Shown here: in pieces, positions 28,706-32,999 of the stretch | Layout of the letters: every line of letters starts with the position of its first letter | How positions within the stretch are numbered: position 1 is the first letter of the stretch | Assembly (NCBI RefSeq): GCF_008065115.1 | Contig: NZ_CP042913.1 | Location: 5,343,257 to 5,407,256, forward strand | Direction of reading: 5' to 3' | DNA length: 64,000 nucleotides | Origin: Bythopirellula goksoeyrii | GTDB taxonomy: Bacteria > Planctomycetota > Planctomycetia > Pirellulales > Lacipirellulaceae | Translations under genes and position numbers: made by a program | The notes under the pieces: model-generated | Seen by the model: only the letters and a program-made list of their open reading frames with translations | Databases searched by the model: none | What the model was told of the DNA's origin: nothing

Positions 28706-29242
28706 AAAACTTGTTTTATCCGCAACGGTCGTCGCGATTCGCAAGCCGCGAGCGGTGCGCTAAACTTTCAAACGACATATCCACCGGACAGCTGCGCAAA
28801 GCCCACGGTCTTTACTCGAACCTGCGCACGGTGGCGGGGAGTTTTGGCGTGGCCATTTTCTCGAATCGAAGAAACACAAAACAAAACCCTGCGGGCTGAC
28901 CCTTGTTTTCTCGATGTTTTCCAACAATTTCCGGGTAGTTTTTAGAACAAAACTCACCTGCGGGCGTGCAAAACTATGAACTGCTTCGAGCAATCGACGG
29001 ACCTGAAGAATGTCGACGGACCCCTAGCGCCGGCGCAGCAACTGCACTCTCAGATCGCCAAGATTCTGCCACTCGACACTTGCTCTCAGCTTTATTTCAA
29101 TTATCAAAGACCGGCGGAGCATAAACGTATGCAATGCCGATTCTAACGAAACAGGTGGCCAAAATCTTGCGCAAAGTTTGGGGAATTGTCAGCGGAGACA
29201 AACTGCTTCGCCTGTTGGACCATTTCCCACGCATACATTTCC
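28706..29242. other. Non-coding accessory stretch
   Basis: No gene could be supported. A 56-codon frame from ATG 28976 (MNCFEQSTDLKNVDG...) is open but has no recognisable features. The stretch begins the repeat-rich, poorly coding block ahead of the broken RAYT gene. Confidence 0.4.
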
Positions 29243-29276
29243 CGTAGGCCGGAACAAGCCGTGCGCAGTTCCGGCA
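29243..29276. repeat. REP-like unit, left flank of the broken RAYT gene
   Basis: A 34-bp unit whose core GCCGGAAC...GTTCCGGC is palindromic. A copy with one mismatch lies at 30281-30314. The two bracket the RAYT remnant in direct orientation, as expected for the cognate REP of that transposase. Confidence 0.85.
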
Positions 29277-29385
29277 GGACTATTCAGAACGCGATGCCAA
29301 CTCATCCGCCATGAGGCAAAATCCGCGTTCCAATCCTCCGCACCAACGGTGCAGCCCAAATTCAGCCCAGGGCATCGCCCTGGGA

Positions 29386-30147
29386 AAAAGGCCGGCAATC
29401 CTGATTGGTGGCGTGGACGACCGCATCCACGCCCTGTGCTTGCTCTCGCGGAAGTTCGCGATCAAAGATGTGATCCAACTCAAACTGAAAAGGAGAACAA
29501 CGGATTGCACGAATTTCCGAGCGCGGCCTTGTGCCGCAACCAAACAAGGCTGAATTCAGCCGCCGACACCTAAAGAATGGCCGAATCAAGAGAATTCCAG
29601 GTTAATGATTAAACGCAGAGGTCGCCGAGACGCTGAGATTCGCAGAGAAAGAAAATGAGTAGCTTTCCTCTGCGTCTCGGCGAACTCTGCGTTTTAAGAA
29701 TAATTTGTGAAAGCTGCGAAGATTTGAATCGTTAGTAGCACGGATACGTTGAGACGAAACCGTACATTTATTCATCGAGTAGGTTTGAGCAGATGGTGGG
29801 TGTGATTTTGAACCATCGAATGAGTTTCGTCTCGTTTTCGTCGGACTTGCTCTATCCGAGAAATCCGTGCTATCCGTGGTTACCTAGTCTTGCTCTTCAG
29901 TTTGAGTAATCCAAGAGGCCAAAACAGAAACTTCCAAGTGGCTAAAAAACAAGGACCAGCCTTTGCGGATTTTCATTGGCAAGCAGGTTGTGGCATCTTT
30001 TCCGCGAGCGAGTCAAACGCCCCCCAAGTCAGAGAATACATTGCCTCTCAGGAGCAACATCATTCGCAGATGTCGTTTCAAGCCGAGTTTCGACTGTTGT
30101 GCAAACGCCATGGCATCGAAATAGACGAATGCTATGTATGGGATTAG
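29386..30147 (+). pseudogene. Broken RAYT/IS200-like transposase gene, interrupted by an inserted element
   Basis: The first part (29386-29478) reads RPAILIGGVDDRIHALCLLS and on to IKDVIQ, matching the HUH region of planctomycete RAYT proteins, but the first His of HxH is now Arg. The second part resumes at 29915 as EAKTETSKWLK and continues, after a one-base loss in an A-run (29944-29949), as QGPAFADFHWQAGCGIF through CYVWD at 30147. Removing the 428-bp insert and one target copy joins VIQ directly to EAKTETSKW. The N-terminus upstream of 29386 is degraded. The gene is inactive by interruption, frameshift and the His loss. Confidence 0.85.
29479..29906. mobile_element. 428-bp MITE-like insertion inside the RAYT pseudogene
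   Basis: The ends are perfect 11-bp terminal inverted repeats: CTCAAACTGAA at 29479-29489 and TTCAGTTTGAG at 29896-29906. They are flanked by 8-bp direct repeats TGATCCAA (29471-29478) and TAATCCAA (29907-29914), with one mismatch. The element encodes nothing recognisable. It contains two further hairpins: arms 29611-29637/29667-29694, and 29737-29760/29824-29871. It is non-autonomous, so a transposase elsewhere in the genome would have moved it. Confidence 0.85.
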
Positions 30148-30280
30148 TGTCGCCCCGTTGGGGCTTTCTGGTTGTTTGTTTCATTGCTACCCAGGGCGGC
30201 ACGCAAACTCGCTGTGGCTCGCTTGCGTTTGCCCTGGGCTGACTTAGCTCCGCCCACTTCGAGGCTCTTGCTGTCATAGC

Positions 30281-30314
30281 CGTAGGCCGCAACAAGCCGT
30301 GCGCAGTTCCGGCA
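30281..30314. repeat. REP-like unit, right flank of the broken RAYT gene
   Basis: Second copy of the 34-bp unit at 29243-29276, with one mismatch (G to C in the left arm). A stretch with the GCCCTGGG motif, also present at 29367-29386, precedes it. Confidence 0.85.
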
Positions 30315-31079: not shown

Positions 31080-32627
31080 TTAGCAAACATCCGGTTGATT
31101 CGATCCGCCCAGACCGTTGAAGAGGCAAAAATTGTCGTCGAATAGGTTATCCATAACGGCGTCGACTAGAACGGCATAACCAGCATTAAGAATAGCCGTG
31201 TTCTTAAGCAGTGCGTTGTGATCGCTGCCATCGTCAAGGGAAAATCCATTGCCCTGGTTGAATAGTGCCCAGTTGCGAAGCAGAGTGTTGTCACCACTAT
31301 CATTAAATTGAAATCCATCCTCACCATTGCTGATAGCCCAATTTCCCCTGATCATGTTGCCGTCGCTCAGAGTAAACTGGAATCCACTAGAGCCGTTGCC
31401 ACTGGCCGCATTGCGATTAATCGTATTGTCATCGGACCCACTGAACCTGAATCCGTTGAGTATATTGTTGCTGGAAGAATTTCCGACGAGCGTATTGCCT
31501 TCACTATTAGCGATGATGAATCCGTAGCGGTTGTTGCTGGCCGTATTACGCTTGAGCGTATTGCCGTGGCCACCATTAAAGGAGAATCCGGTGGCCGAAT
31601 TGTTGATGGCAGAATTACTGACAAGTGTGTTGCTATCGCTAGTACCGAATCCGAATCCGCGTCGGTTGTTGCTGGCCGTATTACTCTTTAGCAAATTGGC
31701 ATCGCTGAGTCCGAAGAGAAACCCGTCACCTCCACTGTCGTAGGCAGAGTTGCCCTTGAGTGTATGGTTGCTGCTCTGATCGAGATGGAATCCGGCACTT
31801 CCGTTGCCCTGAGCCGTATTTCTAGTGAGTGCCCCGCCATCGCTTCCAAGACCGAGAAGGAACCCGTCGAAGGCATTTTTATTGGCGACATTGCCATTCA
31901 GGGAGTTGTTGACGCTTCTAATCAGACTGAACCCGCTGTAGTTGTCACTGGCTGTGTTGCCCTTGAGTGTGTTGCTGTGACTATCGACAAGGCGGAACCC
32001 CTCGCTCGAATTATCGCCGGCAGTATTGCCCTTAAGCGTGTTATTACTGCTGTTAGAGAGAGAGAAACCTACGGAGTTGCCAATGGCAGTATTGGCGACA
32101 AGCGTGTTATTCTCTGTACCTAAGAGGTAAAACCCGAAGACTGCACTATCACTGGACGTGTTGTCGATAAATGTATTGTTGTCACCTGTAACGAAGAAAC
32201 CGTTGCCGGTTCTGGACGTAAACCCGACACTAGTATCTTGTACCGTCAGGCCTTGGACAGTCACACCATTGGCATTTACCTCGACACCGTTTTCATGGCC
32301 AGGGTTGAGGTCACCATCAATGACTGGATTTGAACTGCGGCGTGCCTCGCGGATGGTCAAGTTGTTGGTGTTGATCACGATGGGGTTGTAGATGCCCGCG
32401 TGGACTTTGATTAAATCGCCTTCTGAGGCGGCATCGACGGCTTCTTGGATTTGGGCATATAGATTGTCACCCGGGTCGTTTGCCGCGGGGTCTGCAATGT
32501 CGACTGTGAGCGTGGTCAACATCGTGCGTTCTTCCAGCCGTTCAAAGGTAGGACGCCAAGGATTGCGAGGTCGTAATGAAGATGACCGAGTAGTGGATCG
32601 GTGGGCGGAGAACCAGCTTCTGAACAT
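31080..32627 (-). CDS. Right-handed parallel beta-helix (NosD-like repeat) surface protein
   Basis: A protein of 515 residues from the chosen start MFRSWFSAHRS. The N-terminus has the planctomycete surface signature FERLEERTMLT. After a short segment (DNLYAQIQEAVDAASEGDLIKVHAGIY) typical of pectate-lyase-like folds, some 14 tandem repeats of about 23 residues follow, built on the pattern NTL-x-x-N-x-A-x-x-N-x-x-GF. These form the rungs of a parallel beta-helix. It ends in SNQPDVC without a dockerin or PEP-CTERM tag. The frame is open to 32705, and the start is uncertain. The coding DNA is itself repetitive and could vary by recombination. Probably extracellular, possibly polysaccharide-binding. 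Confidence 0.8.
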   Translation of the reverse strand: MFRSWFSAHRSTTRSSSLRPRNPWRPTFERLEERTMLTTLTVDIADPAANDPGDNLYAQIQEAVDAASEGDLIKVHAGIYNPIVINTNNLTIREARRSSNPVIDGDLNPGHENGVEVNANGVTVQGLTVQDTSVGFTSRTGNGFFVTGDNNTFIDNTSSDSAVFGFYLLGTENNTLVANTAIGNSVGFSLSNSSNNTLKGNTAGDNSSEGFRLVDSHSNTLKGNTASDNYSGFSLIRSVNNSLNGNVANKNAFDGFLLGLGSDGGALTRNTAQGNGSAGFHLDQSSNHTLKGNSAYDSGGDGFLFGLSDANLLKSNTASNNRRGFGFGTSDSNTLVSNSAINNSATGFSFNGGHGNTLKRNTASNNRYGFIIANSEGNTLVGNSSSNNILNGFRFSGSDDNTINRNAASGNGSSGFQFTLSDGNMIRGNWAISNGEDGFQFNDSGDNTLLRNWALFNQGNGFSLDDGSDHNALLKNTAILNAGYAVLVDAVMDNLFDDNFCLFNGLGGSNQPDVC

Positions 32628-32999
32628 AGGAGGCCTATTCGTGCGAGTGTGTCTTAAGGAGTATCGAGACGGAATGTTGAATATGCAAGCACTCCCCATT
32701 ATCAACTAAGACTACGAACAATGCCAGGAAGATTACCGGCATCGGGGATCTCGAGCACTTGAATTTGGCGTAGTGCTAACTGCTGGCTGTGTATCTGACC
32801 TCTCCCAGAAGCGATTTCCCCGAATCTGCGTCGGTGAAAATGGCCGCCGCTAGATACGGCAAATGCCAGACCGTGGCGGCGTGCCAAACCCCGGAACTTA
32901 GCCGTTAGTAGCGGCGGTCGATAAAGCCTCTGTACTTGGGTGGGCGGAGCGAAACTTCCCAAGACGATGAATCCTGTGCAGGTTATGCGAGCCCGCTAG
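32628..32999. other. Gap carrying boundary repeat 3
   Basis: Holds the presumed promoter of the beta-helix gene and the composite repeat 32875-32999. No gene supported. Confidence 0.5.
32875..32999 (-). repeat. Accessory-block boundary repeat 3 (most complete copy)
   Basis: It contains all three modules of the family: GCCAAACCCCGGAACTTAGC (32883-32902), GGCGGTCGATAAAGCC (32913-32928), and GGAGCGAAAC with GACGATGAATCC and GTGCAGGTTATG (32945-32987). Read on the minus strand it runs from GCATAAC-CTGCACAGGA to TTCCGGGG-TTTGGC. The AACC/GGTT ends and the AGGA/TCC inner arms can pair, like the R/L boxes of integron attC sites. It ends at the stop of the gene at 33000. Confidence 0.7.

Follow-up and report, generated by a model that had tools for sequence, protein, structure and literature searches.

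A nested locus in Bythopirellula goksoeyrii: a Y1 transposase gene remnant interrupted by a MITE that itself carries a PATE-like element

Positions 29386-30147 of the window (the whole stretch of 64,000 nucleotides analysed here, from a genome consisting of a single contig of 6.47 Mb) hold the remnant of a Y1 (HUH) transposase gene. The initial annotation had this gene split by a single 428-bp MITE-like element. Comparison of copies within the genome shows that the block is instead composite, being a 208-bp MITE (M) with a 222-bp element (X) nested inside it. We propose, with a probability of about 0.78, that the locus has three layers: a dead Y1 gene, the MITE M, and a PATE-like element X that would have been mobilised in single-stranded form by a Y1 transposase acting in trans. 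An apparent single insertion can in this way conceal two element classes of different chemistry.

Table 1. Features of the nested locus in window coordinates, with the basis on which each was delimited.
Feature	Position	Strand	Remark and basis
REP-like hairpin, CAG-CCCAGGGC(ATC)GCCCTGGG	29361-29384	.	Abuts the gene remnant; repeat listing and hairpin test
Y1 transposase remnant, piece 1	29386-29478	+	Residues 43-73 of the L073 paralogue; HUH reads RIH, not HIH
Target duplication, left, ATCCA	29473-29477	+	Sequence and copy comparison
MITE M, left part, 39 bp	29478-29516	+	Holds TIR 29478-29492; copy comparison
Element X, 222 bp	29517-29738	+	Inserted in M directly 5' of CAC (29739-29741); empty sites in X-less M copies
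X hairpin near first end, GCGGC(CTTGT)GCCGC	29523-29537	+	Family comparison
X palindromic core, AACGCAGAG arms	29602-29703	.	Arms 29602-29637 and 29668-29703, 83% complementary; repeat listing and family
Conserved other end of X	29699-29738	+	Weak hairpin at about 29704-29722, then TTTGAATCGTTAGTAG; family comparison
MITE M, right part, 169 bp	29739-29907	+	Holds TIR 29893-29907; copy comparison
Target duplication, right, ATCCA	29909-29913	+	One extra A before it; sequence and copy comparison
Transposase remnant, piece 2	29915-29943	+	EAKTETSKW..., frame 3; alignment to L073
Transposase remnant, piece 3	29944-30147	+	3' of the A-run frameshift; YIASQEQHH catalytic motif; stop is TAG
Downstream stem, CCCAGGGC...GCCCTGGG, 33-nt loop	30190-30238	.	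Inverted partner of 29361-29384; repeat listing

The transposase gene remnant and its REP-like hairpins

The remnant was reconstructed against an intact paralogue, L073, a protein of 150 aa that matches PF01797 with 91 bits and that NCBIfam (NF033573) names an IS200/IS605 transposase. Beyond the first piece, residues 71-83 of L073 align from 29906 in frame 3 and residues 84-150 align with 29944-30144 in frame 2, and the alignment runs continuously over the insertion junction with a single frameshift, located in an A-run. Two readings of the initial annotation are thereby confirmed: that a TIR-bearing MITE-like element with a short target duplication, of which nine copies have now been delimited, interrupts an HUH transposase gene, and that the frame is restored over the VIQ-EAK junction apart from one later A-run frameshift. 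The nearest relative found for the remnant is L193 of genome G008, with 57% identity across the last 67 residues. Upstream, homology starts two bases after the end of the REP-like hairpin, and residues 1-42 of L073 gave no significant match there among the matches listed (best other E value at least 0.22). The HUH motif of the remnant reads DDRIH where its kin have DDHIH or EDHVH, so that the first HUH histidine is lost. The further claim that the element disabled the gene, which then decayed, holds as far as the interruption goes; the order of these events cannot be established, because the N-terminal 42 residues and the first HUH histidine are also gone, and inactivation of the gene by M is therefore possible yet unproven. 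P0001 and P0002 had no Pfam family match, and P0002 had no NCBIfam family match either. A 35-bp direct repeat (97%), CCGTAGGCCG..AACAAGCCGTGCGCAGTTCCGGCA, is present on both sides of the remnant, at 29242-29276 and 30280-30314.

The catalytic motif allows the gene to be placed by class. In the scheme of Quentin et al. 2018 (PMC6006769), class 1 enzymes carry Y---Q, the RAYTs of class 2 carry Y---NP and class 3 enzymes carry Y----Q, with Y---Q--HH as the signature of subclass 1.2. TnpA_IS200 proteins of this subclass are described there as mostly from Cyanobacteria and Bacteroidetes, with a low copy number and with typical terminal IS200 structures generally absent. The motif YIASQEQHH of the remnant fits the subclass 1.2 signature, and the RAYT motif is absent. 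Among 21 Y1 frames of the genus, chosen by their HUH and tyrosine motifs, 14 have Y---Q--HH, one has a near form and two have Y---NP. The RAYT identity that had been assigned to the gene thus fails on class, although REP-like hairpins do flank it.

The association with REP-like sequences is real. The hairpin test listed nothing 3' of the remnant, where the 33-nt loop of the downstream stem exceeds its loop limit. Exact hairpins resembling CCCAGGGC, of at least 8 bp and within 220 bp, adjoin 10 of 14 kin genes examined, these being our own selection among the Y---Q--HH genes; by comparison, of 600 random windows of 220 bp taken from this genome, 20 contain any such hairpin. In six genes the hairpins lie on both sides, and are then inverted, and most are preceded by TAG, CAG or AAG. 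In kind these are REP-like hairpins, not IS200 ends. As in the RAYT/REPtron arrangement described by Di Nocera et al. 2013 (PMC3733652), a Y1 gene lies between tagged palindromes; that account reports GTAG repeats in the PVC superphylum and names it and R. baltica, rich in tyrosine transposase genes, as hosts. The present genes differ from it in that the class 2 motif is missing and the tag is not uniformly GTAG. They resemble TnpA_IS200 subclass 1.2 in their motif and in their length of about 150 aa, and depart from the subclass as described in PMC6006769 in belonging to a planctomycete genus and in mostly adjoining REP-like hairpins. Genes with a subclass 1.2 signature, for which the printed description generally gives no typical terminal structures, thus adjoin REP-like hairpins here.

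MITE M and the composite block

The perfect 11-bp ends of the initial annotation are exact: the inverted 11-mers CTCAAACTGAA (29479-29489) and TTCAGTTTGAG (29896-29906) span 428 bp, and the 15-nt arms of the block are 93% complementary. When 29478-29907 was searched against the genome, a full match was returned only at the locus itself; eight other places match the first 40 and the last 169 bases, with the middle absent. The expectation of further copies was accordingly borne out for M, with eight more, and disappointed for the 428-bp block, with no other full-length copy. M measures about 208-209 bp, with a 15-bp TIR, ACTCAAACTGAAAAG (the end sequence also being given as ACTCAAACTGAAAA), and a target duplication of 5-6 bp. 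Other copies place its ends one base further out, an A...T being part of the TIR, so that ATCCA, with an additional A on the right, is the better reading of the duplication at the locus; in strict register it comprises 6 bp with one mismatch. The flanks annotated as an 8-bp duplication, TGATCCAA and TAATCCAA, are present and identical at 7 of 8 positions, and it is their length that comparison with other copies corrects, to 5-6 bp.

Counting the locus, the genome contains nine copies of M, seven of them without X; one of the eight others is 477 bp long and carries an insert of its own. The flanks of the copies at 3643637 and 453525 are 97% identical over about 1 kb, so these two were counted once, leaving 8 independent loci. 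That stretch (L057 954-1947 and L058 1042-2035, at 453525 and 3643637 respectively, with an M copy in both) contains no frame of at least 110 aa in L057 and is perhaps a larger repeat of its own. Exact repeats of 5-6 bp (TAAGT, TGGTT, AAGATA, ACTTT, ACTCT) flank M at five of the 8 loci, the locus under study not among them; at two, including this one, the repeat is of six bases with a single mismatch, and at one it is absent. Among 19 delimited M-type copies in relatives (G002, G008, G010), whose ends lie 162-285 bp apart around differing cores, or 408 and 444 bp apart where X is inside, 10 have exact 4-6-bp repeats. An exact repeat of at least 4 bp is accordingly absent at 3 of 8 loci here and 9 of 19 copies there.

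M is a genus-wide MITE. With one mismatch allowed, the 15-base TIR pattern has 21 matches in this genome against 3 for the reversed control, and it occurs in 12 of 14 genus genomes, eight of which have at least 8 matches against at most 1 for the control. Counts are well above control in G000 (the genome under study), G002, G003, G007, G008, G010, G011 and G012, reaching 73 against 0 in G008 and 142 against 0 in G003 (14-base pattern); they are at or near control level in G001, G004, G005 and G006, and G009 and G013 have no match. A search of 38 relatives with the 430 bp matched short pieces only. The transposase gene with the same TIR that had been anticipated was not found: among TIR pairs at up to 2 mismatches in the genome under study, and among the pairs listed in relatives, there was no autonomous partner of M. 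Three pairs considered as a parent transposon were rejected, one 2.9 kb apart (6334843/6337722) that spans genes for a thiolase and a DUF11 protein, one in G003 at 0.63 kb that consists of two MITEs around a SlyX gene, and one in G003 at 2.48 kb that encloses polysaccharide deacetylase and acetyltransferase genes. At L338 293-921 (G003:C45), the SlyX-family reading frame is bracketed by M-type MITEs in opposite orientation. In its 15-bp TIR, 5-6-bp duplication, shortness, lack of coding sequence and many copies M is like the MITEs of DDE transposons, and it is unlike them in that no parent transposase was found.

These data bear on two other accounts of the locus. The block might be one 428-bp MITE with internal palindromes, of which the 209-bp copies would be internal deletions, and its exact ends and near-duplicated flank would suit such an element. 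However, the 222 bp of X also lie outside M, at 936319 and 672830, and other M copies have X-type inserts at two more sites (L060; L239/L241), for each of which an empty counterpart exists. Because each part has independent copies we reject the single-element reading, to which we give next to no chance. The gene, in turn, might be a true RAYT (TnpAREP) inactivated by M alone. M does interrupt it, and REP-like hairpins bracket it as they adjoin 10 of the 14 kin genes; this is nonetheless quite improbable given a Y---Q--HH motif in place of Y---NP, the IS200/IS605 name that NCBIfam gives to the intact paralogue, and the additional loss of the N-terminus and the first HUH histidine.

Element X, its ends and its target sites

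Comparison with empty sites shows that X has neither a TIR nor a target duplication. Besides the locus and the two places outside M at which its 222 bp recur, X-type elements occur at 13 more places in the genome, which gives 16 places in total, one without an end; the 12 of these 13 that have both ends measure 155-268 bp. Copies are also present in relatives. What the family shares is its ends only: CCCAGCGCGGCC-loop-GGCCGCAACC at one, and a weak hairpin followed by TTTGAATCGTTAGTAG at the other. The cores are palindromes of several kinds and highly variable, whereas the arms and ends are kept. Read on the strand opposite to the gene, the ends are GTG|CTACTAAC... and ...GCGCTGGG: X starts just 3' of GTG, with its weak hairpin some 16 nt from that end, and the strong hairpin lies 6 nt short of its other end.

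The strong hairpin is supported by pairing across copies: 117 of 138 pair cells are standard, and sliding the arms leaves no more than 44 (LE rows not 25 nt long were left out of the pairing counts, and 23 distinct ones kept). Support for the weak hairpin is no more than moderate: the seven pairs that remain when two mostly non-pairing positions are left out give 269 of 329 standard cells against 207 when slid by 2; with these two stem positions, which pair in 15 and 22 of 47, the figures are 306 of 423 against 230 when slid. Single-strand folding energies were modest: folding was better than most shuffles for one of three weak-end sequences and no better for the other two, and for one of two strong-end sequences, the other again being no better. 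Assignment of X to an Rfam RNA was discarded, the only matches being two weak microRNA ones far below the gathering scores. Twenty GC-skew samples gave no usable pattern for a strand bias of X relative to replication.

Clean paralogous empty sites, with neither duplication nor loss, are provided by L052 and L060 against L055 and by L239 and L241 against L237. The X-type inserts in M lie at two different sites in this genome (L052, L060) and at a third that is common to two copies of G002. Since L239 and L241 share one site, M and X may move as a unit, and M may have arrived in the gene with X already inside. The M copy of L239 (G002:C190) carries, in addition to X, a further insert with X-type hairpins in inverted orientation at its two ends, a REPIN-like form.

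X is placed directly 5' of CAC. This trinucleotide follows the X end in 40 of 50 rows, and in 30 of 38 once the 12 ends from loci fetched with a CAC-containing pattern are set aside; 10 of the 50 are without it, and the second base after the X end is A in 49 of 50. The rows allow 7 mismatches in 25, and at least one (L144, minus strand) is likely a chance match. The surroundings of X were compared in 28 of the 50 rows, after removal of those with repeated left flanks and of those whose first end was either not located or more than 350 bp distant. A second CAC lies 5-14 nt before X in 21 of these 28, against 8.7% of other 10-base windows, and inverted outer arms with up to 2 mismatches surround X in 11 of 28 (four of the 11 in M), against 6.5% in shuffles. 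The placement of X is therefore not random: it prefers the CAC-bearing arms of other palindromes. In the interior of M, as in other host palindromes, the arms contain CACGGAT- or CACRAAG-like units in repeated form, and these would account for the preference.

Likely mode of movement and wider distribution

We are now able to propose how the locus may have been assembled. The outermost layer is a dead Y1 (HUH, PF01797-type) gene of the Y---Q--HH kind, of which the 3' two thirds are left between inverted REP-like hairpins. Into this gene M would have been inserted with a 5-6-bp duplication, in the manner of cut-and-paste (DDE-type) elements, probably mobilised by a transposase in trans. X, the innermost layer, is inserted in M without duplication, precisely 5' of CAC, and would have travelled as single strands through a Y1 transposase in trans; the order gene, M, X is likewise presumed. 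The asymmetric layout of the X hairpins is that of IS200/IS605-type elements and of PATEs, which makes a non-autonomous element moved by Y1 in trans the most likely identity of X. PMC3119063 describes the PATEs of Haloquadratum as elements that have near-terminal palindromes and lack both TIRs and duplications; their 5' end shows a targeting sequence of 4-5 bp together with a longer spacer. Like the PATEs of H. walsbyi described there, X is too short for a transposase, lacks TIRs and duplications, has near-terminal palindrome(s), a longer spacer at the target end and a short fixed target, and is nested with other elements. Unlike them, it targets CAC/GTG in a bacterial host, its palindromic cores vary and one of its hairpins is weak, and no matching IS605-type parent was found. 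X can thus be viewed as a PATE-like family with ready-made empty sites.

A search for Y1 homologues in 79 X loci (304 kb) matched only the remnant in the window, with no X containing a gene, and no convincing X ends were seen around 30 of the 84 Y1 loci listed for the 14 genus genomes; action of Y1 in trans is on this account what we infer. X might instead be moved by a non-Y1 enzyme that makes no duplication, for example a DEDD recombinase of the IS110 type. IS110-type elements also mostly lack TIRs and choose short targets, and X, without TIR or duplication, has a fixed short target, and no Y1 gene was found between its ends. We nevertheless hold such an enzyme to be unlikely, given that a near-terminal hairpin with a longer target-side spacer is the IS605/PATE layout and that Y1 genes abound in the genus (84 matches listed in 14 genomes, a count of Y1 only). 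The great variation of the cores between conserved arms and ends would also agree with a remodelling of X-bearing palindromes by replication slippage or by gene conversion between dispersed repeats, with no transposition of X; this is quite unlikely in view of the identical X copies in unrelated flanks at 2028647 and 5828371 and of the precise joins at CAC.

More broadly, X might represent a planctomycete class of single-strand elements that land on the CAC units which other palindromes carry in their arms, so building hairpins inside hairpins, and that are moved in trans by the REP-bracketed Y---Q--HH transposases of the genus. We offer this as a conjecture that is possible but doubtful. Were it true, REPs, PATEs and subclass 1.2 would be tied into one system, and if enzymes with the subclass 1.2 signature move X, the question of the subclass 1.2 substrate would become directly testable.

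Of 43 genomes of the family, 6, the one under study included, contain the 18-base X end at one mismatch. A scan of 85k genomes matched 22 stretches, 14 of them in Planctomycetota; the other 8, in which the rest of the X end is missing, look like chance and were set aside. A viral scan gave 3 stretches, none with an X end beyond the 19-mer. In a Mariniblastus MAG a 19-base form of the X end is followed by CACGGAT and lies between CCACGGAT and TTCCGTGG arms, its first X end not being recognised. A search of 199 genomes of the phylum with one exact pattern found arms of three CACGGAT units in 6 of them, the genome under study included, from four families, and the control matched in none of the 199. 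Such three-unit CCACGGAT-type arms, recurring in distant planctomycete families, surround unrelated inner sequences at G000:C1 1348746, 1653227 and 5442103 (L321, L332, L336), and are also present in G104, G163, G177, G201 and G216. A limited literature search found no published description of M or X; in a text search for the repeat letters, all the matches listed were for a 9-letter term alone, which we take to be part of a common cDNA primer. Elsewhere in the window, at 31080-32705, a long reading frame of repeated ..NTLxGNTA.. units presumably encodes a right-handed beta-helix protein.
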